Below, one piece after another: positions 9,235 through 61,383 of a stretch of 64,000 nucleotides of DNA. How positions within the stretch are numbered: position 1 is the stretch's first letter; the number at the start of each line of letters is the position of its first letter. The DNA is from Cladocopium goreaui. Taxonomy: Eukaryota; Sar; Dinophyceae; Suessiales; Symbiodiniaceae. Location: NCBI GenBank assembly GCA_947184155.2, contig CAMXCT020001757.1, positions 277,470 through 341,469 on the forward strand. Reading direction: 5' to 3'. A program made the translations under genes and the position numbers. Below the pieces are notes generated by a model, which worked only from the letters and a program-made list of their open reading frames with translations, did not search any database and was not told the origin of the DNA.

Positions 9235-9261
9235 TACTTGGATGACCGGCTTGGTTGCTAT
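9235..9261 (+). repeat. Left 27-bp terminal inverted repeat
   Basis: Begins TACTTGGATGACCGGC and is the exact reverse complement of 40,557-40,583. It abuts G-rich satellite-derived sequence on its outer side. Confidence 0.75.
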
Positions 9262-9287
9262 CTAGATGGTGCTACTTAAGCTATATT

Positions 9288-10481
9288 TTAGGTAAACCCA
9301 AAGGGCTTCGTCTATAGGAACCAGATCTGAGGCTAAGAGCCTTACATAAACCAAAGACGTAAAGAACCAACATAAAACAACGTAAACGCAACATAAAAGC
9401 AAACACAAGTGAATCATAAACACATCGGAAACTCATCATAAACAGAACGCAAGTGAATCCACAATAAAACATAAAACGACTCATCAACAAAACACAAATG
9501 AATCCACAAACCATTCTGGCAGTCATGTGTCCCAACTGTCGCGCACGTGTTTCCATCTTCTCTGGAGGTGAGCGGAGTTATGTGACACAATGTTTGCTCT
9601 GTGTTTCACTTGTGTTTGAAATACGTTTTGTTTGCGCAGCACTTGCGTCAGGCAAAAGTCTAAGATCTTATTCTGGGAAAATAAGATCTTAGGATTTTGA
9701 CATACATAAAAAAAATACAAGCGAAACACAAACAAAACATAAACAAAACACAAATGTAGCATAATTTTGTTTATGTTTTTTTGTGTTCTGTTTATGTTTT
9801 GGTTTATGTTTTGTTTGTGTTTTTTGTGTCAATTATTTGCGTAAGGCCTTATTTTTTATGTTTTTTTTGTGTTTTTTTTGCAAACAAGCATAAAGAAACA
9901 CAAAAAAACATAAAAAAAAATAAGGCCATACGCAAATCATCGACAAAAAAACAAATCAAACATAAACAAAAAATAAACCAAAACAGAAACAAAACACAAA
10001 AAAACATAAACACGTTTATGCTACATTTGTGTTTTGTTTATTTTGTTTGTGTTTCGCTTGTGTTTTTTTATGTATGTCAAAATCCTAAGATCTTATTTTC
10101 CCAGAATAAGATCTTAGACTTTTGCCTGACGCAAGTGCTGTGCAAACAAAACGTATGTCAGACATATGTGAAACATGTGGGAGACATCAGTTTCACATTG
10201 GCTGCAGGTTTGTACCAGGTTTGGATTTCAAATTGGCAACTGCTTGACACAGGGGGGACGGCCAACTCATGTTTCACATATGTTGCAAATTTCACACACA
10301 TGTTTTGCTTTATGTGTCACTTATGTTTCAATTATATTCCATTTATGTTTCGTTTGCGTTCCACATATGTTTCGTTTATGTTTCACATATGTTTTTACTT
10401 ACGCCTAGACATAGTTTATGTTTACGTCATGCCCCGTCCACCCTCTATAGAAACCATCCCTGGAGCCCCTTTGGATCAAGC
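9288..10481. mobile_element. 1.2-kb foldback element with 11-bp target duplication
   Basis: The direct repeat TAAGCTATATT lies at 9,277-9,287 and 10,482-10,492. The enclosed AT-rich DNA is a giant imperfect palindrome centred near 9,890. For example, GTCTAAGATCTTATTCTGGG at about 9,658 is mirrored near 10,100, and TAAGGCCTTATTTTT... at 9,842 is mirrored near 9,920. Long arms with a 9-11-bp duplication are typical of Mutator-like foldback elements. It has no coding capacity and would be non-autonomous. It sits in the left subterminal region of the giant element. Confidence 0.7.
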
Positions 10482-10492
10482 TAAGCTATATT

Positions 10493-10940
10493 ATAAGTTG
10501 CTCACTAACATGTTCTAACCTAAGTTATATATTGGGTTAACATATGTTAAGTTCACCGGGCTTACTTACTATGTTGACGCTCTTGTGCTATGTAGATAGT
10601 ATGTTGGCTATTTAGTTGCGGCCTACTTAGACAACTTTTTGGTAAGTTCGCCATGTTAACTTAGAGTACTTACTAAACACATAGCCTACATACATATCTT
10701 GACTATTTAAGTTAACAAGTTAAATATTTAACTTACTAAGTACGCGGGGGCCTACTTACTAAGTACGCGGGGGCCTACTTACTAAGTATGCCGGGGGCCT
10801 ACTTACTAAGTACGCCGGGGCCTACTTACTAAGTACGCCGGGGCCTACTTACTAAGTATGCCGGGGCCTACTTACTAAGTACGCAGGGGCCTATTACTAA
10901 GTACGCCAGGACCTACTTACTAAGTACGCAGGGGCCTTGT
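10493..10940. repeat. Left subterminal repeats; 23-bp array of TACTTACTAAGTACGCCGG
   Basis: From 10,493 to about 10,730 there are scattered AACTTAG/GTTAACTT words. From about 10,730 to 10,940 there are about nine tandem 23-bp units, GGGGCCTACTTACTAAGTAC plus GC(C)G. The reverse complement of the right-hand array (40.15-40.47 kb) contains the same AAGTACGCCGGGGCCTACTTA. Confidence 0.85.
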
Positions 10941-11454
10941 TGAGATGCGCGTTTGGGTCGGTGCGCAAGTGCATGAGCTCGCTTCGCAACGTGGACGCGT
11001 TCAAGTGACAGAGGTGGTGATATCATTTTTGTCGAATTTGAATATCGTTTAGAGAGGTTTTGCTTTTCACTATGATTTACAATCTTAAGGTTGGACTGTT
11101 ATTTGAGCAGCGTTTTGGTTCGCTTACATGCGTAATCATATGCAAGCGTGTGTGAAATACAAGACGGGTCACATCATCCCTTATATGCGTTAGCTTTGGT
11201 TTTCGGTTTCTACATGTCAAGCGCCTCCCACTTGGACAGGAACATGTGGAAAATTTTGCTCAATCATGTTTGAAGATTGGATAGGAAAAACATTTTTTGC
11301 CTGTTTTGTCAATTTGGTTTTGTGTACTTGGGGTGGTTGATGCGTCAGAAAAGAACAAGCAGTTGGGTTAAACTACTCGCTGCTGCTTTCAAAATGTGCT
11401 GGCATGTGTCTCGCTTCGAAATAGCGTGCAAAACATCAAACTCAATTTTTATGA
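10941..11454. other. No gene seen
   Basis: Unique-looking sequence between the left array and the first coding exon. It may contain the promoter or 5' untranslated region of the next gene, but nothing can be delimited. Confidence 0.4.
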
Positions 11455-12712
11455 GTCATATTGGAAAAAATAGCAGCAACTCATCATGCGGGTTCATGTC
11501 CCGAAGTGTTTTTGGAAGGGATTTTTGGTCAACGAAAGAATCTGAGGCCTCATGGAACGCCAGAAGCAAGATACGCAAAAGTGAAATTTGTTTTGAACAA
11601 ACTTTGGAACGCCAAATCTCTCACAATGCCTTTTTGTTTTTGACTTTGTGAATTCAGTGGACGCGTTCACCAAACCGACATGTTTGAGACCATGTTTGAT
11701 TTCATGCTTGCTGAGTTGCGCATGTGAAGTCACCGTCTTGGCCTCTTGAACATGTGAGTTTCAGTTGCCATGCTTGTGAATTCAGAAAAACTACTGCAAC
11801 TGTCAATGATTGATGTTGCCAACCAAACTGACAGATTGCGTGAAGAACCTTGCCGTTCCCTGACTGAAGTGGCTCAAAGAGTTTGGGCAGACACAGTGTC
11901 AAAACTTAGACACAAACTGAGTAATCACTGCCGTGATGAGGTCATGGAGCTCCAGTTGACATGTTTGAAAGTCAGCTTGATGAGTCTATGGTGTGTATGG
12001 AATACTGCCTCCTCAAGAAGCCTGACGAACTCCCAAAAGCCAAGAACTTCGTGAATTTGTGGCCGGGGCAGTATGGACGAGTCTTGGCCTGTGACGACAT
12101 CTTCATGGCCAAGTTCTCACAAGGAGGTGGCAGCGCATGCAAGTACCAGTATATGGAGAGGAAGGAATGGAAAGGCAAACCGTTGCTGGTGTATGCTCAT
12201 TGCCAGAATAGATTCCCATACGTTGGTGTCTTGATCCACGAATTTCGACCGAAGATCGTGGTGGAGCAAGGGATATGCACTCGAGATGATGGCTTGGTGC
12301 ATGCAGTTTCATGGCGCTACAGCAGCTCAGGGGAGCACATCTGCACCAAGTTCTTCTACGCCAACGTTTCTTGCAAAAGGTTTGATAATTTTTCACTGTT
12401 GAAGTTCAAAGTTTTTTTTTGTCACATGTCCCATGTCACAGTTGGGAAAGTAACATATAGTGAATGTCTCAGATTTGGTGCGAGGATCGCATTACGCAGG
12501 GGAATGCCTTGAAATACTGTTTGGACCACCTCGTCCAAAACGGGGTCACCACATCGGTGACAGAATGCGTGCTGTCGGTGCCCTTTCAACCGAACCAGCT
12601 GTTATTCAAGCCCGACTATACGCACAGTCAGACGATTTTTGCGGAGAGCGAGTCTGTCCGGCCTTGGGGCATTGTTGATCAAGATTCCATTGGCAGTGGC
12701 TCGGTTTTGTAG
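11455..12712 (+). CDS. Uncharacterised multi-exon gene (probable frameshift)
   Basis: Three coding segments on the plus strand. (1) 11,455-about 11,630: contains AGSCPEVFLEGIFGQRKNLR and RYAKVKFVLNKLW. (2) About 11,787-12,378: begins after TTCAG, contains EEPCRSLTEVAQRVWADTVS, then changes frame near 11,955 to continue FESQLDESMVCMEYCLLKKP and RPKIVVEQGICTRDDGLVHA. (3) 12,473-12,712: begins after CTCAG, contains IWCEDRITQGNALKYCLDHL and ends ...DQDSIGSGSVL-stop. Codon composition looks real in all three. The frame change inside segment 2 is either a 1-nt lesion, a sequencing error or an unrecognised intron. The true first exon is probably upstream. I do not recognise the family; no signal peptide or membrane segment. 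Confidence 0.5.
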
Positions 12713-13604
12713 ATCGCTGAAGTCGAATCTGTGCAGGTTTTGATCAGGTTAACGCATCCATGAGTTTTCCAATCCTGCCAAAGACAAAGAACATATATTT
12801 GATTATGGGTTTGAAAATAAAAAGCTAAACCGAAGATGGAGATGAAGCCAATGGTTTAGATCCATTGATGAAGGCTGATTAGTTTGCTGTTTGAAGCGGG
12901 CATCATCCAACACGTGATTCGACGCACGTTTCCTTTCAAGAGTTCCTGTTCTCATGAGGTTGGGTTAAGCAAACGGTCAGTTGGTGCTATCCTTGAAAAC
13001 GTGCAGGTCGCTTTTTCAATGCCTATGGATGGTGCGAGTGATGGACTTTCAGATTGACTCTTGCAGCCGTCCACCTCAAAACGCCAGGAGGTCTGCCAGA
13101 GCTAGGTTTTTGATGTGGCAACGCGTTGTTCGCCAGATTTCCATTGCAATCAGCCGTCAAAAAAATGGATAGCATACTGGGTGCAGTTTGCTTTTCTTGA
13201 TGCAGCATGGACAGCATACTCAGTTCAGTTTGGTTTACTTGCTTGATGCAGCATTCGCAAAATTCTACGGTTGTCCATGTGTCTAAAAGTTAGAGGCCAA
13301 GATGAGTTTCAAGCAGATCTGTGCCTGCATGCTGTGCACGCTTGCACGCATGCATGATCTCCCACTTCATCACTGCAGCCATGCTAGCTCACACACTCAA
13401 ACTCTCAGATGCATGCTTTATATCGCATGAAATAGACATGCTTTGTGTGATTTTGTCAGGCATGTTATGTGATGTGGGCAGTGGCAAATCCTGTCATCAA
13501 GGCATTTCCACATTCAACAACGGAACATACACACTATAAGTACGGCTTTGCAAAAATGCGTCATATATAGTCAGGTCTGTGCTGGGAAATCCAGGTTCTG
13601 AGCA
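12713..13604. other. Intergenic; includes a TGCATGC hairpin
   Basis: No exon is convincing. At about 13,326-13,355 an inverted repeat (TGCATGC, T bulge, GTGCA, loop CGCT, TGCAC, GCATGCA) recurs in related form at about 35,184 and 35,318. Confidence 0.45.
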
Positions 13605-16000
13605 ATGAACCAGGCGCAGAAAGACCAGATCCAGAAGTACATTCAGGCCGCCGCGAATGAAGGCATGATGGCGATCTCCAAGAAGGTTTTGGACTACTTG
13701 GAGCAGGAGACTCTGAGCTACGTTCAGAGGATTAAATGCATCCACCTTGGGGTCCACCATGAAAACAGAGGCGGAATAGGAATTGACTTGAACCATATGG
13801 TGGATCTTGTGAAGAACATCTCAGCTGTGGGGTACGTGGATGACATCTCCGCACGCGTTTGCATCGAGTTGGATGGTTCACCAGCCTCGGAGTGCACAAG
13901 GCAGGGCGAAGTTTGTTCATGTAGCTCATCCCTCACCACCCTCACCGTTCTTATTCCGTTTGATGATGAAAAAAGTAGATGGTATGGGATGCATGACTGA
14001 TCTAGCCTTTCAAATTTGACAATCTTTCAAGGTGGGTCTCTCATGATCTTTCCTCACTTGCACTTCAATTGCCAACATTGTATCTAAAGGGACACATGAC
14101 GTTTTCACACATGATTGTCTGTCATCCCTACAATGGGCGCCAACACCTCCTAAGTTTAAATGTTAACTTGGCAGGGCTTTCAACCGAAAGCTGGCGATGG
14201 AGTCCAATGGAACCCTTCCAAGTTCGGAGGAGATCAGATTTGCGACCATTTGTGGAAGCCATGCCAACATGGCAGCTCGTGCAATCATGCATGGTAGCAT
14301 GGTTCACGACATACCGAATGAATGGAGACGAGCAATCCAAGATGGTGCAGAATGGAAGGTCATCAAAGCAGTGGTATGGCAGCAGTTCCCAGAGTTGGTG
14401 GACATGGTTTGCCAGAGTGGAAACACCAACCAGAGCATCTCCAAGCAGGAGGACGAGATGCAGCTGCTGAACAAGATAAGACAGGCATGCAAGGCTTATG
14501 GTGGCAGTGGAGCGCCGAAGTGGCAGGACGTGGCAGGCGCGGCTCTGCGCTCACGACCAAAGTGTGGACCTTCAGGTCCCGCAATCTTTGGCTTTGTGGT
14601 GAGATTTGGTGGCTCCAGCAAGTTGTTGGCGGACACACAAGCCTACGTGAGAGCGTGTGGCAAGGGGGGCCGAGAACTTGGGCAGGAAACTTGGGCCACA
14701 CTATCCCAAGAGATGAAGAACTTCCCCGACCACCTCCGTTGGAGACACGCATTGCTGAAGTATGGATTTGCTGGTGACACCACCTTGACAGTCACAGACG
14801 CCGCTCGGAAGCAATTTATATCAGTACGTACACACACATGTATTATATATATATATCAATTGTCATTGCTGTCAACCTCCCTGCAGGTTGGGCGTGTTGC
14901 TCGCTTGCTCTTTTTGGTTGAAGACTTGATCGCATATAATAACGTACGCTTCACAACGTCGGCTGAGATATGTTTCAATGAATTTCGCATGGGCAATTCC
15001 AAAGACATATGTGACAGCTACAAACAGTTCAAGATGCACAGCCCTGACATCCGAGGCCAAACGAGCGATGACAAACAGGGAGGTTCTGCAAAAGGCACTC
15101 TCCGCCATGAAACTGCTGGACCAGTGGACCACATTGACCAAAGCCTACGCCAACGATGACAACAAGCAGTTGAAGTTCCTGCGTGCACATGGCAGCTTAG
15201 AGGTGCACTTGGCAGCATGTGTGCTGGACAAGAAAAACAGAACGCACGACAAGATGGAAGATGCAGCCCGGCAGACACTGCAGGATTTTTCAAAAGAAGT
15301 TGGCGTGGCACTGGCGCCGCCAAGCCAATGGAGCCAGACTCAGACTGAGAAGAAGCCTCCTCCCAAGAAGCCATCCAACAACACTGTCGTGAGAGAATAC
15401 AACGACAAAGGTCAGCTGACAAACGCAACCGAAGTCTTGGCTTCGATGGGCTTCGCTGTTGGCTCTCAAGTGCAGCGCGGCCAGACCGTGGCGAAGATCG
15501 ATCGTGTCCAAGGTGACGAGGTGCACTTGATTGTGGAGAGCAACAAAGTCTTCGTGTCCACTGCCTCCTTCATTGGCAATGAGTGGAAGCAGTACAGCGA
15601 GCCTAAGCCACAGCTGGAGGTGACGTGGCTGCAGCATTCCCCACCTTCCAGCGTGGAGTTCCAACATTGTCTGTTGAAGGCCAAGGTCTTCGGTGCTATG
15701 GCAGAGCAGTGCAAGAAGTTGCAAGGCTGGGATGCTCTGCAGATCTTTACGAACCCAAAGGCTATCAAAGTCACAAAGCATTGGCCTGCCAAGAAGCTTC
15801 AATTGCCGTGCGCCAGTACTAGTGTCATGCTGATTGAGGCAAACAAAATCACCTCGGACCAGTTGCCCATTGGAACATTTGAGAACTTCATGGTCGTCAT
15901 CTGCAGCTATTCCAAGACTGGCAACGGCGCAGGCGATGGCTTCCAGAACCCCTTCTGGCTCGTACCCAGGACAAATGAAGCTGATGATGTGAACATGGAG
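13605..16000 (+). CDS. Dinoflagellate-type conserved protein, 5' exons (split by nested transposon)
   Basis: Exon 1 is 13,605-13,900 (MNQAQKDQIQKYIQAAANEG..., with the LGVHHENRGGIG motif). The donor is GC at 13,901 and the acceptor AG ends at 14,174. Exon 2 is 14,175-14,823 (AFNRKLAMESNGTLPSSEE; FGFVVRFGGSSKLLADTQAY), with a GT donor at 14,824. A further long coding segment runs from about 15,030 to 16,000 (NREVLQKALSAMKLLDQWTT ... NPFWLVPRTNEADDVNME) and ends in a GC donor at 16,001. The join between 14,823 and about 15,030 is unresolved: a small exon may start at 14,887 and the frame changes near 15,000. Pattern and motif order match, from memory, a family greatly expanded in Symbiodiniaceae with no known function. 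The terminal exon lies 9 kb downstream, beyond the inserted element. Confidence 0.65.
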
Positions 16001-16402
16001 GCAGGCTTTCGGGTTGTGTGGTGTCTTGGGATCGGCAGAGTTGACATTTCGAATCTTTAGCGTGCTAGCAGCTGGTTGGCTGATCGCTGCTCGTGATTTT
16101 ATACACATCCGAAAGTTGATTTTTCCATTGTACTCGCATAAAAATATGCTTAAGTACATGTCTTGGCTGCGTCCTTCCAATGTGCAATCCCATTCTTCGT
16201 GAATCAAATCAATGCTCATTAGTGTAAAAATAAACATTATGTGTCTTAATGTACATGTATATTTATCTAATATATATACACTGATATTAGAGATGTGTGC
16301 ATACACACAGAGGAAGCAAATTTGTGCGTACAAATTCAGCATAGATAAGCTTAGAGATATTCACAGATGCACCAATTGACTTGAATTACAAGCGCATGTA
16401 TA

Positions 16403-16530
16403 CCCAGAACTTCCATTCCTCCTTATTTAAGGAATTCCTCCTTATTTAAGGAATTCCTCCTTAAAATTCCTCCTTAAATTAAGGTGGAATTTTTCAAAAA
16501 TTCCTCCTTAAAATTCCTCCTTAAATTTTC
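16403..16530. repeat. Left TIR and subterminal array of nested transposon
   Basis: After the 28-bp TIR, the words GGAATTCCTCCTTATTTAA and AATTCCTCCTTAAA repeat about six times. Confidence 0.8.
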
Positions 16531-16607
16531 AATTGCAAGGAGATCTTGCACCTCCTTCAGCAGGAGACTTGAAACCTCCTTATCCCAGATCCTGGCAGCA
16601 AAACTTT

Positions 16608-18307
16608 TCACTTCAGCTCTGGAATCAATTGTGCTCGAAAACTTTGCAGAACACTCATGCCTATGGAATAAGGGTTGTGGCTTCCGCCTTTCACAGCTCC
16701 TAAGTGAGCTAGGAAGCCACCAAAGTCTTCGTCTCGATATGTCCAACTGTCTGATGGACAAGAGTTCTGGAGCAATAAATCTAAGAAGCTGTGGTGCTTT
16801 GGTTTGATCTTCCAAGTATGGTCAGTCTCGTTTTCCAAGCTCTTACACAACAGCAAAAACTTTCTGCCATGCAGCAGCATTGACCGGTGATTCCATAGAT
16901 TCTTGGACAAGAAAGAATAACATTGCCACAGTTCTGTGGCAGCCATCTTGATTGTATATTCAAGCACATTGTCATCATCCAAAAAATCATCGCAGATTTG
17001 TTTTGCAAAAGTAATCAACCCTCGAGCTTCTGCAGCTTTGGCTCGAAGTTTTGGACTTGAACTGGCTTTCTTTCTGATCATGAGGACTGTCAAAGTAGGA
17101 AGCTTGTTTTCCACACCTTCAGTCTTGTAGTAGCTTTGAATTTTGTGGAACAAGCTTTTCACCCTTTCTTTGACATTGTTGCCAGGCAAGTGTTTTCCAG
17201 AGGCAATTAAATGGTGAAAAACATTGCCCATAAAATCTGCTGCCACGCCCAAGTCCACAATGTGAAGCCAGTCCAAAAGAAATTGTTTGTTTGTCAGTCC
17301 TGGTGTTTGAAACAATTCATTGATGTCAATGCCAGAATTGGAAATTGATTGCAACAAAGTGAAATGGTCCAAAGGATCAAATGCCTTGCAGCTTTCAAAG
17401 TTTCGAATTTCAATTGGTTTGCACAAGCACAAATGGCAGCATCCTTGTTTGTCTCGCCATCCAGGAAATTGGAAAACTTCTTTTCTCATGGCCCAATCAC
17501 CTCTCACTTCAAGTAAAAAAGCAGTGAAAGGCAATGCCTTGCCATTGAATGTGCTTCGTTTTTTGTCGCCTGGGTGCCAAAAGCTGTCATCATGCCTTGC
17601 TGAAGGCCAAGTGCAATTGGCTAAGTGAATAAAAGACCAAGACAAAATTCCTAACATCTTTGACAAAGTTACTCCCTTGATGCACCAGTGCTTTGGAATA
17701 CAGCACAAAGGGATTCGCAAAGTACCATTAGGTGAAGTAAGCCAGGAAAATTCAATGAGATGCATTCCAAAGTTTGACTTCTGTCATAATTGTAAGGTGT
17801 GCCATCGATCCAAAGGCCAAGTCCTATGGCTTCTCGAACTTGGAACTGCATTTGCATGTTCGCCAAATGTTTCTTGCTGAGTTCACACATGCCACCAGTC
17901 TGCAGCAAGTCTTTCTTCTCAGAGCGCTTCGAGAAGACAAAAAGAATCTCATGTGGCAAAAGAAAAGGTATCTTCTTCATCTCTTCTGCTTGTGTTCCAG
18001 GATTGTAGCAAGGGATCAATGCAATGTATTCATTGAACCACAGGCAATTCTTCAACATTTTTCTTTTCATATCCCTTGCCAAATTCTTTTCCCAATTGGC
18101 TTGCTTCTCACCACTGCCAGATTTCTCTGCACCTTTGACCAAATCTTTCACACCAGTGGCTCCAGCTATTTGTGCATCTTTCATGAGCTCAATGGCTCTT
18201 CTAGCAGAGACAGTCTTGGTCAAAAACAAATTGGAAACATTGTGTCGAAACCTCTTCTGGTCAGGTTCCCTAAGGGTAGACAAATCTACCTTTCTCTTGT
18301 GAAACAT
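16608..18307 (-). pseudogene. CACTA-like DDE transposase of the nested element (one frameshift)
   Basis: Read from 18,307 down: a basic N-terminus (MFHKRKVDLSTLREPDQKRF), then the first acidic motif LWIDGTPYNYDRSQ. The frame shifts by one near 17,730, between ...SLNFPGL and TSPNGTLRIPLCCIPKHW. It then continues with RGDWAMRKEVFQFPGWRD, QGCCHLCLC (CxxC), the DWLHIVDLGVAADFMGN motif and a C-terminal KPKHH and YRDEDFGG. The order D...GD-xx...CxLC...DxxH resembles the Tnp2 catalytic core of CACTA transposases. About 570 residues in total. The single frameshift means either recent decay or a sequence error. Nuclear role: cutting and joining the 28-bp TIR ends. A short extension in another frame (16,474-16,815) reads through two tandem hairpins. 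Confidence 0.7.
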
Positions 18308-18609
18308 GGCTTGAGCTGGAAAAACATGTCAACATAAAAGTTCATAAGACCTCAGAAGACAAGAAATTACACATTGTATTTAGTTAATGCTAAATTTGGC
18401 CAATGCTTTGAAACAGGGCAACAGTAAAGGAGATCTTACACCTCCTTGAGTCTTGTACATCAGCTTAGAAGCAGGCTCTTTTTCCAGCGGCAGTTACCAT
18501 CTGCGCATCTTCCAAGCAGATCCCTGCGATATTTTTATCTGCATTTCCACATTCCAAAACTGACAACTGCACCAAATGCGCTTTCCAAAATCTAAGGGCC
18601 AAACAGCTC

Positions 18610-19545
18610 CTACAGCAATGCCTGGTGAGTTTTCACCTTGGCTTTTGCTTCTTGCAGCTTCTCTTGGCTGGAAGCAAGCCATGCTTTGGCAGCAGGCAAT
18701 GATTTCGAAAGGCTTTCAGGAGAAGTGTCCTCAGGAGCAAGATCTTCACTGGCTGCGACATAGGATCGAAGGTTGGCAATGGCTTTCAGCTGCTCTTGAC
18801 ACCAAGTCTGAAGACCTTTGCCTTTGGCATGGAAGCTTGGGTCACCTTTGATTTCCAAACGACAGGCCAGGTCCTGGGCCTTGGCAAGCTCCTTCTCCCA
18901 GGCATTCTTGCAGGAATTCAGTCTGTTGCACACATTCTGAAACTCCTTCAAAGGCTTACTGACCCCCTTGTCATCCAAAGCCTTGCCTGAGATCTGCAGC
19001 ACTTCAGAGCCACTGGAAGACATTGTCAAGTTATCCTTGGCTGCTTGGCTTTGGCTCACAGCAGACCATGTGCTCTTCAGCAAGGCCAAATTCCATCGCT
19101 GGAGCTTGGAAGCCTTGTAGCTCGCTTCCACAGGGTTCGTCTCATCCCAATTCAAGTCTACCATGTCTTTTTGCTTGGCCAAGTGCTTTTCAACAGCAAG
19201 AAACTCGTCAGAATCAGCTGTCATTTCGAGCATGGCGGCCACTTGGAATCTGGTTCCAAAACCAGCTCTTTCATTGACAGTTTCTTTCTTTTCAGTCTCC
19301 AAAGACTTGTTCCAAGTGCTGATCCACTTGCAAGTCTTGTCAGCCTTCCAAGCTTGGATCAAATCCTTCTTCTGCTGTGAGAAACGAGGCAAGGACTGGT
19401 AGAGCTGCAAGACTTGTTGGGCTTCCTCTGAGTTCGACTTCTTCAAGGAATTTCCAAAGTTGGCTTGGTCTTTCTGATCCACATTGGCCTTCTCCTTCTT
19501 GACTACAGCCTTGGGAGCAGGCTTAGGCTCAGCATTCCTGCCCAT
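18610..19545 (-). CDS. 311-aa uncharacterised Lys-rich protein of the nested element
   Basis: Single open frame with a clear ATG (MGRNAEPKPAPKAVVKKEKA) and a stop at 18,610. Contains LQLYQSLPRFSQQKKDLIQA and TCKWISTWNKSLE followed by GFGTRFQVAAMLEM, then a long, probably helical Lys/Glu/Ala-rich region (KEFQNVCNRLNSCKNAWEKE). From memory this layout is seen in dinoflagellate-specific proteins of unknown function. It lies between the transposase and the other minus-strand genes, so it could be an accessory DNA-binding partner like TNPA of CACTA elements. That is inference. Confidence 0.6.
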   Translation of the reverse strand: MGRNAEPKPAPKAVVKKEKANVDQKDQANFGNSLKKSNSEEAQQVLQLYQSLPRFSQQKKDLIQAWKADKTCKWISTWNKSLETEKKETVNERAGFGTRFQVAAMLEMTADSDEFLAVEKHLAKQKDMVDLNWDETNPVEASYKASKLQRWNLALLKSTWSAVSQSQAAKDNLTMSSSGSEVLQISGKALDDKGVSKPLKEFQNVCNRLNSCKNAWEKELAKAQDLACRLEIKGDPSFHAKGKGLQTWCQEQLKAIANLRSYVAASEDLAPEDTSPESLSKSLPAAKAWLASSQEKLQEAKAKVKTHQALL

Positions 19546-19734
19546 GTTTGCAGAAGCTGGAGCTTGGGAGCTGTCTACTGTGATCCTTGTAGTGGCTGCA
19601 ATGAAGAAATGTCTCAGCTGATCAGTTCCTGCAAGTCTTTAGCTTCTGAAAACGAATCAGCCAAGACAGTAGCATGCCCAGGACCAAGGAAGCCAGAAAA
19701 AGCAAGAGAGAAGGGAAGATGATGATATTGAAAA

Positions 19735-19815
19735 AAAAATATATATATATATATGTCTATATACATATATGTATATGTATATGTATGTGTGTATATATAT
19801 ATTTATATATATTCA
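19735..19815. repeat. AT microsatellite
   Basis: About 80 bp of TATATA/TGTATA repeats between two minus-strand coding regions. Confidence 0.85.
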
Positions 19816-20257
19816 AGTACTTGGCTCAAAAAGACAAGCTCCAAAATTGAGAATGCACCAAGCAGCACAAGCTTGCAATTGATTGCCACACCATAGGATC
19901 TCATCTATAAGGAGGTTGAAATACCTCCTTGGAAATAAAGGAGGACTCTGTTCTCCTTAAATATCATATGTCTTCACAACCCCCCCTGCCCAGCCACAAG
20001 TCCACAGGCATTTTCCCACACTAATTATCTTGCGGTAATTAATTGGCTTCTATTTACTTTGGCTCTGGTCTTTGCCACTTGTTTCTTTTCTAGGTACCAG
20101 AGGCTCAGTCTTCACACCTCTCTTGAACAAGCACTGCCTGAGGTAAAGTGCCAAATACTTTGTAGTTGCGCATTCCTGGGTTGGGCCACAGGTTCAAGGA
20201 TCTATATATGTAATTCTTTTCTCATCAAGCCAGCTTTATGAACAGAAACTATGAATT

Positions 20258-20980
20258 TCATCCATGAATAATGTGCTTACAAGTCTCAGATGTTCTCAGG
20301 TACTCATAGTGCTTCAAAAGCTTCTTTGTTGGCATACATTTGATCATTGCGATCTGCTTGTCCATTGGGTCCACAGGGTTCTTCTCAATGGTGGCCAGTG
20401 GCTGCTTCCTCCATGGAGGCAGTTCCTTTGGAGGTTCCATTGAACCTTTCATTGAATACTGAAAAGTGTAATGATGAAGTAAGTTGGGATGTCTATGAAT
20501 CTCCAGTTCCAAATCCAATGGTTTCTATTTTGGATCCAAAGTAATTTTTATTGGAGGTTAAAATTGGTTAAAATTAAAATTGCCAATTTTAATTTTAACC
20601 TGTCCTGCCTTTAAAAGTAATACATAAACGGGTTAAAATTAAAATTGGCAATTTTAACCTCCTTGTTTTTCCAATTTGAAACCTTTAGAGTCATCATGCA
20701 TGACCTGAATGAATTGTCTACAGAGTTGCCAAGAGCCACTCAAACAAAGGAAATGGATGGGCATCAGCTTCGGCCAAGGAGATCTTGCACCTCCTTTTTG
20801 ATTCCAGTACTGGACACTAGCGCAATGATTGTGATACCTCAGGTTGAGATCATCAGCTCTCATCATCATTCCAAAGCTGATCATGTGCATCCATGAAGGC
20901 TTGAAAAATGATTCTACAGGTCCATCACCACTACATTGATCAATATGGCTTGACAGCTTCAGCCATGCAGAAATGCTCAT
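20258..20980 (-). CDS. Possible exons of another nested-element gene
   Basis: Two minus-strand open stretches: about 20,800-20,980 (KLSSHIDQCSGDGPVESFF) and 20,258-20,470 (SMEPPKELPPWRKQPLATIE ... KKLLKHYEYLRTSETCKHI). A hairpin copy (20,776) lies between them. The second stretch has good coding composition; no start, stop or splice model was settled. It may belong to the gene upstream or downstream. Function unknown. Confidence 0.35.
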
Positions 20981-21441
20981 ATCACATATATCATGTTTTT
21001 CTTATATTTAAATTTAGTTTATCAAGGAGATCTTGCACCTCCTTAATGAGTCGCTTGCGCCCATAATCTCGAATCATTTTTCCAGGGAAGCTCAATTGAC
21101 TCAATCTACATTTGAATCCTCATCGGCTTGCTCTCCAGCATCAAGAGGTGATGTAGGAGAACATGGGGTTACAGCAGGACCTGATCAGGAGGCATGATGA
21201 TGAACATATTGCACAGTGCATGATTGACATGAGATAATTTCAAACCCACAGTCACAGAAAACTCCAGCCTGTGTAGATCATTCCTTCATCCAGGAGCTCC
21301 AATGGGGTAGCATGCGCAGTAGGTGCAGTAGGTGGTCCTCATGATGCATTGAAACTGAAACAAAGGAGGTGCAAGATCTCCTTATGCCCAAAACAAAAAA
21401 TCATCTGAGGAGGTCTTGCACCTCCTTCATAACATGATATA

Positions 21442-25465: not shown

Positions 25466-25738
25466 TGACTACTGCCGGCTGCTGGGCTTTTTCCAAAAGC
25501 TCGCATGCTACTTTCATGACTGCAGGATGTCTGTGTGATCTCAGTGCAGCTGCATGCGTACAAACACATGCAGAAGGCTGCAGAAGGAAAGGGTTAAGAT
25601 TTGAAACTGGCTACACATGCACTCGTACCTGGAGAGGTCAACAGGACATATAGTGCTCCCAGGTCATATGGGCTAACTGATCATGCTTTGCATGGCTATG
25701 TGGAAGAGGTTGCAACACATAGCTATAGGACCTGGGCC

Positions 25739-27172: not shown

Positions 27173-27528
27173 ATATGACAGCGTGAGGGCATGAAAGAAA
27201 AAATCTGTTTGTGCTTCTTGTGCCAGCACTTGCAATTTTCAGTCTCATTGCCAGTCATGTCGTGCATCTTCTGCATTTGTATTGTTGTTTTCGAGTTTTG
27301 CAGGAAACTTCACATCCTTAGGTCACATCTGGAACATATTGGGCCTTGAGCCACTATGTGTCGGCAGGTTTCCATTGCTTTGAGTTGTCATCGTTGCTTC
27401 CATTGGCCGCATCATGCTGTGCATACTGATGCACGCGTGAAAATCATGACTTCCTGCTGGTTTATGCACTTCAGTGATTGGCTCACACTTGCAAGTTTCA
27501 ACCAGAAAGTTCAACCTTTTGCTGCCTG

Positions 27529-28011
27529 ATGGCTGTGAAGAGAACGCCGGCGGCCAAGAAGGCGTTGACCAAGAAGGCTGCAATGAAGGTGCCAGCCAAG
27601 CAGGCGGCAATGAAGAAGATGCCAGCCGAGAAAGCGGGAATGAAGAACCACGCCATGAAATCTGTGAAGATGCCCAGGAGCCCATGGAATCAGATGACAG
27701 AGAAGAAGATGCGAGCAAGTGAGAAGATTGAGAAGGAACCTGCCCAGAAGCGCAGGTTTGTGTACTCCGTCAGTCGTATGAGTGCGCAGGAGAAGAAGCG
27801 TGTCTGGAACGAAGACATGGATGAATGTGTGGGGGAATGGGTGGAGGTTGTGAACTACAACAAGCGCTTTCGCGAACCACCGCCATGCCCACGCAAAAAG
27901 TGGATCCAGGCCTGTATGGAGGAACGTGGATGGTTGCTGTTGAAGGTGAAGCTGGCACACCGGCCAAGTGGATGGCTGAAGATTGAATCTCATGAGCTGC
28001 CGCATTTGTAG
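27529..28011 (+). CDS. Small basic protein with H1-like Lys/Ala N-terminus
   Basis: ATG at 27,529 (MAVKRTPAAKKALTKKAAMK), 160 codons. The first 50 residues are periodic K-K-x-A-M-K / A-x-K units, like the lysine/alanine tails of histone H1 and dinoflagellate basic chromosomal proteins. The rest (FVYSVSRMSAQEKKRVWNED; WVEVVNYNKRFREPPPCPRK; WIQACMEERGW) is not recognised. A nuclear, nucleic-acid-binding role is inferred only from composition. TAG stop at 28,009-28,011. Confidence 0.55.
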   Translation: MAVKRTPAAKKALTKKAAMKVPAKQAAMKKMPAEKAGMKNHAMKSVKMPRSPWNQMTEKKMRASEKIEKEPAQKRRFVYSVSRMSAQEKKRVWNEDMDECVGEWVEVVNYNKRFREPPPCPRKKWIQACMEERGWLLLKVKLAHRPSGWLKIESHELPHL

Positions 28012-30828
28012 GGCAAGTTGGATGTGTGATGCTTCTGACAGGAGTTTGAAAAAAAGCATTGCCAGTCTGGTCCAAGCATCGTTGATATTCGTGCGTTCAA
28101 GGTGCATAAGATCGAAATTTGTTTCAGTCGTTGGTTCAAACCAATTCTTGGAGTGTGATTCAAATGTCTCGTGATAGTCATTCTACGCTGTTGGGCCTTG
28201 GCTGTTGCTTTGCTGCGGTTTTTGAATGACTTTTGCTGCAAAACCGGTATACAGGCGTCGTTGGAGATGAAAATGGAATCAGATTGAGAATGTTGTTTTC
28301 AGCAAAGGTTCACTACTCTCAGTGGTTTCAGATTGATTGCGTGTTGCTGTGACTCTCTTCGCTGCCCATTTGTCGAGCGGATTTTGCTTACGCAGTTTCA
28401 ATCACACGCACGTCTACTTCAACACAGGACTGTGCGAATGTCTTGGCTGTTTGGCTTCATTCTGAGAAAGACGTACATGGTAGCTTGCTCATTTCGAACA
28501 TGATGTAAGTCAATTCTTTCAAAGCCTGCCTCGACGTTTTCGAATGTGTATCGGACAAGTTCATGTCTGTGGCGTATGTTTGAATGTATAGACATACTGC
28601 TTAGGACAATCAGGGTCAATGCAAAATGCACGCTCTATACATAAGTATGTTTTCTTGATACAGGAATTTGGACATTGTCAATGTAGCAGGCAACACCCTG
28701 ATCGTATGTGACGGACTGGCTCCTGAATTTTCAGGAGCCAGCGCTGCCAAAGCCAACAGAACACACAGGAGGACTGTTCTGCTTACGTTCGTTGCACTAG
28801 CATTGATGCTATGCGTTCGATGTTGGAATGTTGGAACTTCACAGAGATCCTGATATCATGTGTCCATCTCATTTAACCATTCGATGATGTTTTGACGATG
28901 ACTGAAGCTATCCTTGACGTATTTTTGGCTATACTATCCACATCGTTTATTGGTGCCTGCAGTCCTTAGCTTTTGGATGTCCATTTGTCATGGATGTTTG
29001 ATGAATCGAAGCACTCTATATCTTGATAGTTTCACTTCACGATGGCTTTCTATTTTGCGAGTTCAAGGTGTAAGCTGCATGTATTTTGTAATATGATGAT
29101 GCCTGCAAATTTGTCGAGGACATTGCGGCGTGTCGATGGGTCCACATTCGAGGTGCGTGTGCAGGTTCGTTTTTGGATTTTGAAGATGTTGCTTCTTCAG
29201 CTGAACACTTCAACGTAATTGCTGTTGAGTGCCTTGTGTTTGCATTGATGTGTTTGAAACCATGCGATCAAAATTGCATTCATTGTGTGTTTCTGGCAGC
29301 TGGGCATGGCTTGCTCGCTGCCGGCACTCATGCAATTCATCCCATTCTTTTTTTGTGTTGCCATGTGTATGTTGCAGGTGCGGGCTTTGCAGGCCGTCTT
29401 GGAAACTTCCGGGAGTGCATTTCCCGAGGCGATGATGGGTAGGAGGGAGTCATCTGAGCGCTATCTACCAAAGATTATCATAGAAAAAAGTCAAAAAATA
29501 GATTCAATTGGAAATCGAAAAAAAAACAAAAAACATAGGAACGGTATTGTGTTTTGCAATACTGGCGCCATTGGAAAAATCATCAAATTCAATTGAAAAT
29601 TTCAACATTTTTTCAAACATCAAAAAAAAAATTGCGAGAGTTCCCCCCTATTTTCTTCTATTTTTTTTGGAAAAACATTGATTTTTAAAATTTTGTGGAT
29701 CCACAAAATTTTGATACCGAAAATTGTGGATCCACAAAATTTGAAAAGTAGAATTAGAGATTTTTGTGGATCCACAAGTTGGCAAGTTGAAAAGTTGTGG
29801 ATCCACAAGTCTGATTTTCAAATTTTGTGATTCAGCAAGTTTTGAGATTCAGCTTTCTTGGATGATTGTCAGTTTCAAGATTGCAAAGGACTGAAAAAAA
29901 AAACAAAATCCATCCAACCATGGCCAGGCGGAGATGAGTTTTTCCTTTAGCCAACGTGGATGGATGAGGCTGGGACCACGGATTGAAATGTTTTCCTGGG
30001 ATGGCGCGAGCTAGCCCAGCACTGTGGAATGAGAGAGTGCGAGCTGTCCCAACGCCTGGTTGACTTGACATGATGCATTGTTTCGATTCGATTTTGCATT
30101 GATTTTTGTATCGTGTTCTTGTGCGTTCGGTGTGACAGGTTGGATTCTCGCCAAGCTTTTCCACAGAAGGCGTGCTTGGGATGGAAGAGAAGGGCCAGTG
30201 CATGTGGCTTCATGATTTGGGCTGGTTTTTGCGATTGGAGACATGCTTTGATGATTGCTTCAGTGCCTCACTTTGTTCGCAAACCGCAGACGGATGGCCC
30301 TTAGGCAACTTTTGAAACATTTGCCATGGGTTCACATGCACACGATGCACCACAGTTCACACACACACATACGAGCAGTTTCATTCGGTTGCCCTTCGGG
30401 GCCTAACAACTTTCATTGTGTTGGTGTCATGTTGTTTTATAAGGATGCAAAACATGTCAGTTCCATCATGTTGAACACAACTTCATGCATCCATGTGAAT
30501 GCACAGCAACCTCAAGCATCAGCAATGAAACTTCAACTTCAATCATGGGGTCACCTGTTGATGATGACATTCCTACAGGCATCCCAGCCACCTTTGATCG
30601 AGAACTAACTGTAACTGACGCACGCTAACCCTACATACATACTTCGCAATGAGTCAATAATTACGCCATTTCCATCATAGGCATATACGCCCACTGCATC
30701 ACACTTCACACAGTGCAAGTTCAACTTAGCATGGCCACGAATTGGTCATCGCATACCTAGACACGTCAGCCATTTGGCCATCCTAGACACTTTGCATGCG
30801 GTGCCTGATCCTGATCCTCTGCTGCGCC
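28012..30828 (+). other. Mostly non-coding; one or two candidate exons
   Basis: A plausible exon starts at 29,378 after TTGCAG (VRALQAVLETSGSAFPEAMM). A weaker one is near 28,734, after TTTTCAG (EPALPKPTEHTGGLF). Neither could be joined into a gene. From 29,460 to 29,830 the sequence is AT-rich with four palindromes; 29,830-30,828 shows no convincing exon. Confidence 0.4.
29693..29808. repeat. Four copies of palindrome TTGTGGATCCACAA
   Basis: Perfect 14-bp palindromes at 29,693-29,706, 29,724-29,737, 29,764-29,777 and 29,795-29,808. Starts are 31, 40 and 31 bp apart, embedded in AT-rich DNA. Confidence 0.85.
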
Positions 30829-35103: not shown

Positions 35104-35534
35104 ATTTCACTCTTGTTTAGATGTTGCACCAAGCAAAAACAAATTCTTGCATCCGTTTGCATCCCAGCTTCATTGCAGTCGGCTGCATGCTGTGTATGAT
35201 TGCACGCATGCATGAATCTCACCAGTGAACCGTTGTCTTCAGTTTAGTGTGTCGTGAAAGCAGTGCGTTGTTGAGAATGCCCGTGCATCACGCCACACTG
35301 GATTCGATATCTCGGCCGCATGTTGTGCATGATTGCACGCATGCATTGATCTTGAATGTGACCGCAGCCGTGTGACAGAAAGCAGGCATGAATCACGACG
35401 GCAGAAGTCACACTCGCATGACATGCAGTGTTTGCTACATGTCAAACGTCATCGAAGGCCAAACTGAACACATGGCATGGTTTGCGCTGATCTTGTTTTT
35501 GTCCTCAGAAGTTGAGGCAGGGCGTTTGATCCCA
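35104..35534. other. Intergenic; two TGCATG hairpins
   Basis: Two copies of an inverted-repeat motif (about 35,184-35,213 and 35,318-35,346), related to the one at 13,326. The last part may be 5' untranslated sequence of the next gene, with an acceptor CAGAAG/TTGAG near 35,510. Confidence 0.4.
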
Positions 35535-37390
35535 ATGGCTGCCAGCGGCTCCAGTGACACGCAGGGGGAGGTGTTCATCCAGGACCTGGAGAACATTCAA
35601 AGCTTCTTGGCCACGCAGAAGCGCACTGTGAAGAAGGAGTCGTTCAAGAAGATGCTGGACAACCAGGTGAAAGCCTGGGTCACAAGGATTCAGGAGATCA
35701 CCATCCTTCCACACGAAGCCAAGCGGGTGGGGGAGTTGCTGGGTGAGGGGCCGTGGCATGATGAGCACCACGAGCAGTTGGCGGAGGCTCTGGGATCCAA
35801 AATGGATCAAGCAGCTGGTGGCGGGCAGGCGAAGGTCAGACGACCTCTTCAGACCTTGACCTGCTTCGCGTCGTACCTGACAGAAGGTGACTGCAAGGTT
35901 CTATCGGACCCAGACGTTCACAACGTCAACAAGATCCAAAGGTTAGTTGCCAAGTGCGTGAAGATGGGTCTTCATTTGCCGAAAGAGACGACCACCAAGC
36001 AGATCATCAAGACCGCGATCGACTGCGCCTTGGATGCATCGCAACTTACATAAAGTGTTTGAAGCGCCTTCCATCTTCTCCTCTCAAGTTCTGTGTTGAT
36101 TTGATCAGTTTTCATCAATCTTGTGATTTTTTTGGAGCAGCTGTCCGTACTTCAGGCGGCATGAAAGTGGCAGACGCACCAGAGACCTTGAAGATGCTGA
36201 ACGAGTTCAAGCAGCAGTTGAAGGCCAAAGTTAAACACATGGAGAAGAAATCTTTGCTCGTTCAGTTTCCTGATGACCCGGAGAAGCTGCCAAAGGAGAT
36301 CTACGACAGAGTGTTTGGGGAGGAGTTGCCATCACCGCCCAAGGGCAGTGCCGGGGGGGAGTCATTGAAAGTGGTTGCGAGAAAATCACATGGTTTGGTG
36401 AAGAAGCAGTTGTCATTCAGTGACGCCAGTCCCATGGCCAATATGATGCAGCAGATGGATCAGATGATGAGGTCTAACATGGGTGGTGGAATGAACCCTA
36501 TGATGTTGATGATGGCTGGCATGCAGCAGCTTATGGGTGCAGACAGCGGTGCTGCTGGTGCGCCTAATTTGCAAATCTTTGGTACCAAGAGGAAGCAGAA
36601 GGCATTGGCAGATACTGCAGAAGCCGACCAAACGCCGACAGAGCAGAAAGCTTTGACGGACAAGGCTAAGGATGAATTGCGTGATACCCAGGAAGAAGAA
36701 AAAGAGCCAAGTGAAAAGACTCAGCGAAGCGAGGCCGGCAAGAAGCCGCCAAACAAGAAATCATCTTTTGAAATGTTTGTGGGCGATGAACCTGAAGCTC
36801 CAGCATCAGCTCCCGCCAAGGCGAAAGGCAAGAAGACACCAGAGGAGTACGTGAAGCTCTTCAAGAGTGGCGTCAAGAACCGTGAACGAGCTCGCGCAGA
36901 GGCAAAGAAAGAAGATGTGGAGATGAAGTCGGAGGATGACGATGAAGCTGAGGCTTCAGAGCCGGAAGAAAAGCAGCCCAAGACAAAGAAGAGAAAGTCA
37001 GAACCAAAAAGTGCGGAGACACCGCCCGCCAAGAAGCCCAAGGAAGCAACCCCCAAGAAGAAGGTGAAGGCTGCGCCGAAGACAGTCGCAAAAGCTGCTG
37101 CAAAGGAGAAGAAAGCTGCTGCCCCCAAGAAAGAGGCATCTGCGCCAGAGGAAGGCGCTGTGCCGCGAAAGGATTTGGGCCCCAAGCCTGATCCGCCAGA
37201 TCCTTGGACAGGGACGTTCTTCTGGGGGACTGGCAAGATCCACAAGAATCCAAAGTCCAATTCTTGGCGTGCCTTTGTTGAGAAGTCGGACAAGTGCGAT
37301 CGCAAAGTGAAGTTCGGTGATGATCACGTCGCATCGTTTCACCGTGCCCTTCAAATCATCGAGGAAGGCATGGCTGCCCGATGCTTATGA
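35535..37390 (+). CDS. Two-exon Lys-rich protein with conserved C-terminal module
   Basis: Start chosen at the ATG at 35,535 (MAASGSSDTQGEVFIQDLEN). Exon 1 runs to about 36,010-36,040 (LQTLTCFASYLTEGDCKVL; KMGLHLPKETTTKQIIKTAI). A short intron ends near 36,140-36,156; its exact donor is unresolved (a GC donor after ...KTAID would restore frame). Exon 2 has MKVADAPETLKMLNEFKQQL, a Met-rich stretch (NMMQQMDQMMRSNMGGGMNP), a long Lys/Glu/Ala-rich disordered region with KKP-type basic clusters, and a final module GTFFWGTGKIHKNPKSNSWR ... FHRALQIIEEG. From memory, this terminal module recurs in dinoflagellate proteins and faintly resembles an AP2/integrase-arm-type beta-sheet DNA-binding fold. That is inference. 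Stop at 37,388-37,390. Confidence 0.65.
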
Positions 37391-37858: not shown

Positions 37859-39893
37859 ATGGCCGTCAATGTGGGCCATCTTGGTAGGCGCAAGGGTATC
37901 TCTCGCTCTGGCTTGAGCACTGTTCTGGATGAATTGAAAAAGAAAAAATTCCAGATGCTACATCGAGACAAACCATCAAGAGACGCCGCGATGCAGACAT
38001 TGATGTGCAGACGCGCTATGGCAAACTCCTGCAAGACTGGAAGGTCACGCTTCTGCCAGTCGGGAAGAAGAAGAAAAAATCTGGCTCCGTGACCAAGCCC
38101 AAGCAAGTGAAGACTGTGGAATTTCCTTTTGTGCAGCCAATACCTTTGCTTTGTCACATGTGCCTTGAATGTCCAGAATTCTCGGCCATGATGTTGAAGG
38201 TTTTGGATCGGTATGCGCCGAGCCAATCATCCCCACTCAGCTTGATTTGCTACAGTGACGGTATATCGCCTGGCAACGTCCTGGCGCACAACCAAACCCG
38301 CAAAGTTGAATGTGTTTATTGGTCGATCAAAGAATTTGGTGATTTGGCTCTGTCTTTAGAAAAAAATGGTTTCTGCTTGGAATAGCAAGGACTGATCATG
38401 TCAAAAGGATGGCAGGAAAGATGTCGCAGTATTTCAGACATGCAGTGGAACGTTTTTTTTCTCCAGTGGATCTTCGACATGGAGTGCAGCTGGCATTCCC
38501 AAATGGAGAGCGGAGGATGCTATTCTGTGACCTGTCGATTGTAATAGGAGACGAGGTGGCTCTCAAAGAAAGCCTAGACATGAAAGGCGCTAGTGGAACA
38601 GTTTTGTGTCCACTGTGCCGTAATCTTGTCGACTGGAAGAGCAACCTTGACCACCATTCAACGGAGTTTGTTCCCAGCAACTCTACCACATTAGCTGGCG
38701 TGGATCTTCACTCGGATGAGACACTTTTGGAGACTGTACAATTTTTGGCAAGTCGTTCCAATGACGTGAGTAAAACAGCATTCAAAAAAATGGAGCAGGC
38801 GTTGGGCTTTAATCACAACCGTCATGGCCTACTGCAGTCAGATATCTTGACCCTCAAGCCTGTCAGCTTTTTGATGTACGACTGGATGCATACCTATGCA
38901 GTCGGAGGCCTGTGGAATGTTGAGCTCGGCAGTTTGGTTGCCAAGCTGTCTGCACATGGGGTGACGCAGGAAAGGCTGAACGACGAACTCAACAGATTCA
39001 CCTGGCCATCTTTCTTGGCCGGTCGAGGTGTGACCGGTGTCAACATCTTTTCAAAAGAAGATCAGGATGGCGACATCAAATGCAGTGCAAGTGAATGCTT
39101 GAGCGTTTACTCAGTCATTAGGTTCATTCTCTCTGAATTCCGGAAGAATGGGGAGCTTGAGGCCTTGAAACAAGAGTGTGACAGCTACTTCAGGCTTTGC
39201 AGAGTCTTGGATTTGCTTGCCCACCAAAAAAAACATGGCTGGGACCCTGATGCTCTTCGACAGGCAATTGAGAGGCACTTGAAAGGATATGTGGCTCTAT
39301 ATGAACGTTTCCTTCCAAAACATCACTACTCACTGCACCTGCCATCCCAGTGTGCCCAGCACGAGACACTCGTCTCGTGCTGGGTGCACGAGCGCAAACA
39401 CAAGGAGATCAAACGCCATGCAAATCTCATCACAAACACATGGTCAAATTTTGAAAGATCTGTCATAGTGGATGCGATGGGCGATAGTCTCGATGCTCTT
39501 GCGGGCACGCCTGATGAACCATACTATGGAGGCTTGTGCAGCCCAGCTGAAGCAGGGTCTGCAATTAGCCAGGAATTTCGAAAGCTTGGGTTCGATGAGC
39601 AAATTTTTGTGAGTCGAACTGCCTTTTTCAGTCCTGGCGCAAAAGCTTCAGCTGGCGATGTCGTCAGGCTGGTTGATGATGTGGGTGAGCAGTGCTTGGG
39701 CGAAGTGAATTTCTTTGCGACAACCACGGGCCAAAACTTCTGCTGCATTACGCATTGGAAAGCCAAGGGCAACAACAAATTCCAGAAGAGCGGAACGAGT
39801 TTTGTGGCAGAGCTGTCTCAGGTTATGGACGTTTGTATTTACCGTGATGGCGCCACCTCCAGCCCGTCAGTGGTTTCATCCACTACTTGGTGA
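37859..39893 (+). pseudogene. CACTA/CMC-like DDE transposase of the giant element (two frameshifts)
   Basis: ATG at 37,859 (MAVNVGHLGRRKGISRSGLS...). The frame shifts in an A-rich run near 37,936-37,948 (into ATSRQTIKRRRDADIDVQTR) and again near 38,361-38,372, at an A7 run (into GIARTDHVKRMAGKMSQYFR). Both lesions are in poly-A, so they may be sequencing errors. Motifs in order: ICYSDGISPGN (first Asp), DLSIVIGDEVALKESLD (second Asp), VLCPLCRN (CxxC), MYDWMHTYAVGGLWN (third Asp), PKHHYSLHLPSQ and VHERKHKEIKRHA. This is the order expected of Tnp2/CACTA-type transposases. The last about 110 residues (GDVVRLVDDVGEQCLGEVNF) may be a small beta-barrel accessory domain. About 670 residues. It ends 0.66 kb from the right terminal repeat. 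Confidence 0.7.
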
Positions 39894-40149
39894 CGTGGAC
39901 CCCAAAGGGGTGCTGCGACTTTGCTGGAAAAACAAGTCCCGCCATTTGCCTTGGCATCTTCAGCACGTATCAGAGTTTTTGGGTTTGTTTTGATTTTTTT
40001 CGCAGAGAACGTTTTTCAGAAAGCGAGCGAGCGAGGGCAGCCACCCGCAGAACCAAAACAAAAAATATATATATAATGTATATAGCTTCAGACGGTGCGA
40101 CTTGCTACATCCGGTAATTGCGCATAGCTTAGCTTCATACGATACTCAA

Positions 40150-40480
40150 GTTTACACACTCTGCGGCTTACTTAGCGCATGATAGGTAACTAAGTTAAAC
40201 TACTTACTAAGTAGGCCCTGGCGTACTTAGCGCATGATAGGTAACTAAGTTAAACTACTTACTAAGTAGGCCGCGGCGTACTTAGCGCATGATAGGTAAC
40301 TAAGCTAAACTGCTTACTAAGTAGGCCCCGGCGTACTTAGCGCATGATAGGTAACTAAGCTAAACTACTTACTAAGTAGGCCCGGCGTACTTAGGGCATG
40401 ATAGGTAACTAAGCCAAACTACTTACTAAGTTAACCGCGGCCTACTTAGCGCCTACTTATAGGTTCACATAGTAAGTTGG
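40150..40480. repeat. Right subterminal 55-bp array
   Basis: About five units of 55 bp (starts 40,171, 40,226, ...), each with CTTAGCGCATGATAGGTAAC, TAAACTACTTACTAAGTAGG and CCCCGGCG. The reverse complement shares AAGTACGCCGGGGCCTACTTA with the left array. Confidence 0.88.
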
Positions 40481-40556
40481 CCTGTAACTAGTTACTAAGT
40501 TCGCCTCGTATGTTCGCCAAGTCAAATAGTATATTACTCTAAGTTGCTGTAAGTAA

Positions 40557-40583
40557 ATAGCAACCAAGCCGGTCATCCAAGTA
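40557..40583 (-). repeat. Right 27-bp terminal inverted repeat
   Basis: Exact reverse complement of 9,235-9,261. Outer flank GGATGATTTGC. Confidence 0.75.
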
Positions 40584-61379: not shown

Positions 61380-61383
61380 AGAT

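Follow-up and report, generated by a model that had tools for sequence, protein, structure and literature searches.

A large DNA transposon, very probably from or near the CMCT group, with a core of at least four genes and apparently mosaic subfamilies in the dinoflagellate Cladocopium goreaui

Results

The locus and its terminal repeats

We analysed a stretch of 64,000 nucleotides from the dinoflagellate Cladocopium goreaui (assembly GCA_947184155.2, contig CAMXCT020001757.1), called the window below (C1757:277470-341469), and searched the whole 1.166-Gb assembly for relatives of its parts. The window carries at 9237-40581 a repeat-bounded unit with genes for LAP, MP, TAP (transposase-associated protein) and a transposase on the plus strand. 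This unit is very probably one copy of a DNA transposon of the cut-and-paste type that belongs to the CMCT group (CACTA, Transib, ESTA) or stands near it, with a core of at least four genes and with subfamilies that appear to recombine. The exact 27-bp inverted repeat reported in a preliminary description of this DNA is present at 9235-9261 and 40557-40583, the outer TA counted in. When the TA is given to the target, as the data below demand, the terminal inverted repeats are 25 bp long (9237-9261 on the plus strand and 40557-40581 on the minus strand) and are flanked by TA at 9235-9236 and 40582-40583. Inside them lie a left subterminal array of about 9 x 23 bp (10731-10937, plus strand) and a right one of about 5.3 x 55 bp (40164-40452, minus strand), which have the 23-mer CTAAGTACGCCGGGGCCTACTTA in common in inverted orientation. 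The mirrored arrays with a shared sequence had also been described before, and both exist in another copy of the element, in contig C4379.

The 27-bp end has 28 copies in the genome at up to three mismatches, and its reversed sequence, which served as control in the genome searches, has none, in agreement with the earlier view that a chance match of this length is very unlikely in 64 kb. Eighteen of the 28 ends form nine inward-facing pairs. A broader end pattern detected 42 related ends (control 0), and 24 of them are arranged in 12 inward-facing pairs with a spacing of 7.5-37.3 kb; ten of the 12 span 15-37 kb. The preliminary description had suggested looking for paired ends and empty sites and had named mostly unpaired ends as a sign against a transposon; the paired ends thus form the larger part, and empty sites were found as well.

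For the empty sites, the flanks of five of these nine pairs, all from copies other than that of the window, were joined and searched against the genome. All 40 matches listed cross the flank junction with the genome two bases longer than the query, and all belong to the insertions in C4013 and C1168, both sited in multi-copy sequence. Ten of the 40 sites were fetched and every one reads flank-TA-flank, and the filled sites of C4013 and C1168 read flank-TA-CTTGG...CCAAG-TA-flank. The outer TA is therefore a duplication of 2 bp of the target, which leaves 25 bp for the inverted repeat proper. The flanking dinucleotides are equal on both sides in 11 of the 12 pairs, being TA in ten and TG in one (C4379). 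Because the TG/TG of C4379 is direct and not inverted, the outer dinucleotides are not part of the inverted repeat. In all 12 right ends of the window's subfamily (subfamily 1) and subfamily 2, TA or TG is followed by G; the next base is also G in C982, C1606 and C2927, but C in C5993 and C693. No duplication of 3 bp or more was detected in the nine pairs inspected. The ends had at one time been read as CACTT without target duplication, since no duplication was visible outside the 27-bp repeats, and this reading was dropped once the empty sites revealed the TA.

Some other ends were noted in the same searches. At C2446:1311918-1314280 (L065), two left ends lie 2.2 kb apart with the same flank and no right partner, representing a tandem duplication of the end. 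Four ends (L094-L097 in C123, C3546, C5814 and C5843) have the form TA-CTTGGATGGCCCGCGGGG..., and they likely belong to a further family that uses the same TA and the CTTGGATG start.

Core genes

The LAP gene region (13593-16060, plus strand) contains at least three conserved coding blocks at about 13.60-13.87, 14.17-14.79 and 15.03-15.99 kb, which are 31-36% identical to a subfamily-2 element in C125. The MP gene (25601-26419, plus strand) codes in this frame for 273 amino acids with a basic C-terminus, and TAP (35388-36050, plus strand) precedes the searched transposase frame by about 2.4 kb. The whole genome was searched with these MP and TAP frames, with the LAP frame 14978-16057 and with the transposase. 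The searches found at least 84 transposase, 40 LAP and 45 MP loci (second fragments dropped) and 49 TAP stretches, so that the gene families are as numerous as had been supposed. As the lists score the best candidates only, the following counts of co-occurrence are lower bounds. LAP and MP both lie upstream, within 40 kb and on the same strand, at no fewer than 24 of the 84 transposase loci, and among the listed matches five loci have LAP only and nine have MP only. A listed transposase is found downstream of 29 of the 40 LAP loci and 33 of the 45 MP loci. TAP occurs on the same strand at 22 of the 24 loci with LAP, MP and transposase, upstream of the transposase at 17 and downstream at five. 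Since these four searched genes recur together in many divergent copies, LAP, MP, TAP and the transposase look like the element's own core set and not captured cargo.

None of LAP, MP and TAP has a Pfam match above the curated cut-off, and LAP gave no match to PDB by sequence. MP gave weak PDB matches to ribosomal proteins (E 0.13-0.34), which were taken as chance. The MP frame is open in all nine loci at 86-100% identity, and the ratio of nonsynonymous to synonymous divergence (dN/dS) between the two subfamilies is about 1, reflecting fast change or relaxed constraint.

Transposase

The transposase gene lies near the right end at 37859-39893 on the plus strand, and in the window copy its frame has two breaks, near 37.94 and 38.36 kb. 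The frame is uninterrupted in C4379 (757 amino acids) and is broken once in the part of C558 that was compared. Because of its broken transposase frame, the window copy probably cannot move unaided. The genome contains 92 matched transposase stretches with identity down to 26%, of which eight are second fragments, leaving the 84 loci. An alignment of seven relatives, of which three belong to one subfamily, shows D134, D232, C251-x2-C254, H490-x3-H494 and E512 to be invariant, D134 being kept in the six that cover it and lying outside the seventh, a fragment. This D-D-C2C-H3H-E signature fits the catalytic motif that is given for the CMCT group (PMC12730594), namely DDE with C(2)C and H(3-4)H between the second D and E. 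Transposase_21 (PF02992), on the other hand, matched none of the seven relatives; it gave no match in the genome either, yet control genomes likewise gave none. A search of PDB sequences with the transposase profile gave no match, and none of 13 pattern matches in IMG/VR was confirmed as a relative.

Size of the window copy and later insertions

The copy at C4379:380589-402273 is 21,685 bp long, duplications included. Its identity to the window copy is 99.55% over 16,540 aligned bases in three segments, a value that omits the repeat-rich stretch at 29.7-34.3 kb, which is about 88% alike. C4379 is free of two insertions of the window copy, an 8.5-kb element and a 1.2-kb repeat. Thus the 31.3 kb of the preliminary description holds as the distance between the ends, but about 10 kb of it is secondary insertion and the element proper is about 22 kb. 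C558, of which 45 kb was read, has only the right part of the element, from window position 29477 on.

The smaller insertion (9294-10481) is a dispersed repeat about 1.2 kb long with an imperfect duplication of roughly 17 bp on its two sides, and its left part has at least 30 other copies in the genome, at 96-100% identity. A 78-bp inverted repeat lies inside it. The larger one (16403-24874, minus strand) is a nested element bounded by 28-bp repeats CCCAGAACTTCC with TA duplications at 16401-16402 and 24875-24876, and the site is empty in C4379. At about 16.6-24.5 kb it codes on the minus strand for its own transposase-like protein and for KRPAA-repeat (KRPAAVL-repeat) proteins. One of its proteins has 113 matched stretches in the genome, the first 38 at 93-100% identity, which suggests a recently expanded family that likewise uses TA. 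BLASTP between the outer and the nested transposase gave no significant similarity. The preliminary description had counted about eight plus-strand genes in the whole unit. This is probably too many, as relatives were found for about four or five, and the minus-strand genes belong to the nested element.

Mosaic structure between subfamilies

The window was compared with 8.5 kb from the left half of the subfamily-2 element in C125 (L082). They share one long block of DNA, at 25443-28295 on the plus strand and at the same position in C125, with 89% identity over 2,942 aligned positions; the other DNA matches between them are simple AT repeat. This block of 2.85 kb is alike in coding and non-coding DNA and has sharp borders. 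The adjoining LAP is 34% identical between the window and C125, and the transposase about 50%. In the main frame of the block dN is 0.072 and dS 0.071, and this near equality argues that the likeness comes from recent shared descent and not from selection. MP is at 86% identity in six subfamily-2 loci on separate contigs and at 99-100% in three loci of the window's subfamily.

The element in C4013 has the opposite arrangement. Close to its left end it matches C125 at 99.3% over 578 bp, and in the right arm the two agree at 99.7% over 2.9 kb. Between the MP of C4013 and that of C125, however, identity is only 37%, and the 3 kb of C4013 read there has no DNA match to the C125 stretch. About 0.4 kb downstream of the C4013 MP is 81% like the subfamily-2 element C2, so that subfamily-2 sequence may resume there. 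C4013 is absent from the listed LAP matches, and the 3.25 kb between the two stretches read was not covered. Thus there are copies whose ends agree but whose middles differ, as well as copies that share a block although their ends differ, and the elements appear from these comparisons to be mosaics in which gene blocks were swapped between subfamilies.

Other features of the window

Some further frames lie within the element on the plus strand. An open frame with lysine/alanine repeats inside the shared block (27478-28011) is of uncertain coding status, and a basic low-complexity protein (36191-37390) has two blocks conserved in C2, at 40% and 63%. For the frame 11940-12512, which was not searched alone, nothing similar was found in the part of C125 that was read. 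Rfam and tRNA scans of the window gave nothing. The sequence which we take to be the 21-nt spliced-leader core has 172 exact matches in the assembly (reversed control 0), which marks the genome as that of a dinoflagellate. No copy of the leader was found in the window or in 84 loci whose sequence was scanned for it.

Outside the element, the same satellite-like repeat of 125-127 bp occurs on both sides, at 7650-8835 and 45988-46615. Directly to the right of the element is a 2.4-kb stretch (40845-43271) with a roughly 40-bp inverted repeat, 92.5% alike, at its bounds. A 1.64-kb unit at 61383-63023 has inverted arms of about 370 bp that are 94% alike, and is a fold-back element or one like a miniature inverted-repeat transposable element.

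Discussion

The paired ends, the TA duplication, the empty sites, the co-occurrence of the four genes and the mosaic pattern are best accommodated by a transposon with the following mode of action. The 25-bp inverted repeats, together with the mirrored subterminal arrays, would let a DDE-type transposase find the ends, and the arrays may be binding sites for this enzyme or a helper. The transposase would cut at CTTGG/CCAAG, release the unit and place it at another TA (in most cases TAG), which would thereby be duplicated. The core would comprise at least four genes in one direction (LAP, MP, TAP and transposase), spread over about 22 kb, and by analogy with VANDAL elements and their protein VANC, the first three would most likely be transposition helpers or counter-silencing proteins. 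Homologous recombination between co-resident elements would then move gene blocks between different end pairs.

Several observations are not in favor of this interpretation. Eighteen of the 42 ends have no partner. For nine of them the contig stops within 25 kb on the side where the element would lie, and the partner may therefore be absent from the assembled sequence; four have more room (C152 with 32.5 kb, C558 and two at C2446), and five fall in a less similar one-mismatch set. The unpaired end in C2927 (L093) is identical to the paired right end in C1606 (L087) over 107 bp, flank included. The contig C2927 stops about 190 bp beyond this identical stretch, and the two probably represent a single insertion that was assembled twice. 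Of the five insertions queried, two yielded empty sites, and the window copy was not among these queries. The pair in C2 has unlike dinucleotides, CA and TA. Among the best candidates listed, 46 of the 84 transposase loci are without LAP or MP. Finally, the transposase has no Pfam or PDB sequence match to any named superfamily, so its grouping rests on the motif spacing and the TA duplication.

The preliminary description had supposed a giant CACTA-like element carrying intron-containing cargo. If the unit were a typical CACTA/EnSpm element that had grown by capture of cargo genes from the host, this would explain the subterminal repeats on both sides, the DDE motif with C2C and H3H, and the three of 28 ends that read CACTTGG when the target bases are included. 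We regard it as quite improbable, however, because the empty sites give a 2-bp TA duplication with CTTGG..CCAAG ends, PF02992 failed to match the seven relatives, and the searched genes accompany the transposase in divergent copies as core genes do; moreover, every MP above 47% identity among the matches listed lies in nine loci with a matching end. Of that description, a large gene-carrying transposon with CACTA-related motif spacing remains, but membership in CACTA and the cargo do not. Even less can be said for an integrated virus-like element such as a Polinton, which we consider very improbable. Its size of 15-37 kb in ten of 12 pairs, the inverted repeats and the several genes would suit such an element, but the duplication is 2 bp, none of the 13 IMG/VR pattern matches proved to be a transposase relative, and the open reading frames scanned (not every small exon) gave only weak Pfam matches, below the curated cut-offs, and none to polymerase, capsid, ATPase or integrase.

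With regard to the mosaics, the likeness of the 2.85-kb block and the different middle of C4013 might come from strong conservation or assembly error and not from exchange. Uneven selection or chimeric contigs can mimic gene swaps, and the reading of the C4013 interior outside the right arm covered 2.0 kb close to the left end and another 3.0 kb around MP. This is somewhat less improbable than the two preceding alternatives but still unlikely, since the likeness of the block extends over coding and non-coding DNA and stops at sharp borders, since dN and dS of its main frame are nearly equal, and since the MP identities of 86% and 99-100% recur in six and three separate contigs of subfamilies 2 and 1, respectively. 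Moreover, MP stretches that score nearly as that of C4013 are also present in C3179 and C4780. Exchange of gene blocks by recombination is thus the probable cause of the mosaic pattern.

Among known systems, we set the element next to ESTA, inside CMCT or close to it, on the basis of the motif and the TA duplication rather than a tree. The TA agrees with the target duplication of 2-5 bp in the CMCT group and with the TA duplication of ESTA, but the CTTGG..CCAAG ends differ from the 5'-CA..TG-3' ends of most CMCT members. Neither the 3-bp duplication nor the CACTA or CAC..GTG ends of EnSpm/CACTA were found. The 8-bp duplication described for Zisupton (KDZ) also differs from TA (PMC12730594). 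ESTA are described as EnSpm-like transposons with TA duplications in fungi, which can carry extra genes (PMC12730594). On that description, our element is set apart by CT..AG ends with subterminal tandem arrays, a core of at least four genes and a dinoflagellate host. Large EnSpm/CACTA elements of 16-20 kb with four to five open reading frames are known from the red alga Chondrus crispus, as cited in PMC6431247. They resemble our element as large algal CACTA-like elements with several frames, but our element has a TA duplication instead of the 3-bp one of EnSpm, sizes up to 37 kb and apparent block exchange between subfamilies. The Starships of fungi are likewise large gene-carrying eukaryotic transposons, and the preliminary description had compared our element with them. 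They are classified by a tyrosine recombinase (PMC12134995) and carry accessory genes, whereas our element has core genes, a DDE-type signature and TA duplication, so that the comparison does not extend to the mechanism; no Pfam match to a tyrosine recombinase was found among the window frames scanned. In dinoflagellates, the introner elements of Amoebophrya are repeat-bounded mobile DNA too, but unlike our element they are described as having no internal transposase genes and as reminiscent of non-autonomous elements (PMC7789003). We found no report of the present element in dinoflagellates in the literature searched, which covered few subscription journals. What appears to be new is that the TA duplication goes together with CT..AG ends and mirrored arrays, with four or more core genes, with sizes up to 37 kb and with block exchange.

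VANDAL elements have a transposase of the MULE type, which sets them apart from our element, and the likeness to them is drawn by analogy. In Arabidopsis, they encode the anti-silencing protein VANC, whose targets are often tandem repeats according to PMC5735166, and MP or LAP might relate to the subterminal arrays in a comparable way. Extending the analogy, one could imagine, though we hold it rather doubtful, a modular family in which fast-evolving LAP-MP cassettes circulate between end pairs by recombination and MP, like VANC, counters silencing by reading the tandem arrays near the ends of its own element. If so, a cassette swap would change which elements escape host control.

Finally, dinoflagellate genomes hold many lineage-specific genes without known function. 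As four such protein families, each counting 40 to 84 loci or stretches in this one genome, move as a set between inverted repeats, part of this gene set is probably transposon machinery, and genes of such elements could be mistaken for ordinary dinoflagellate genes. With elements up to 37 kb, two insertions with textbook empty sites and apparent block exchange, the family should be a testable eukaryotic system for the assembly and remodelling of multi-gene transposons.

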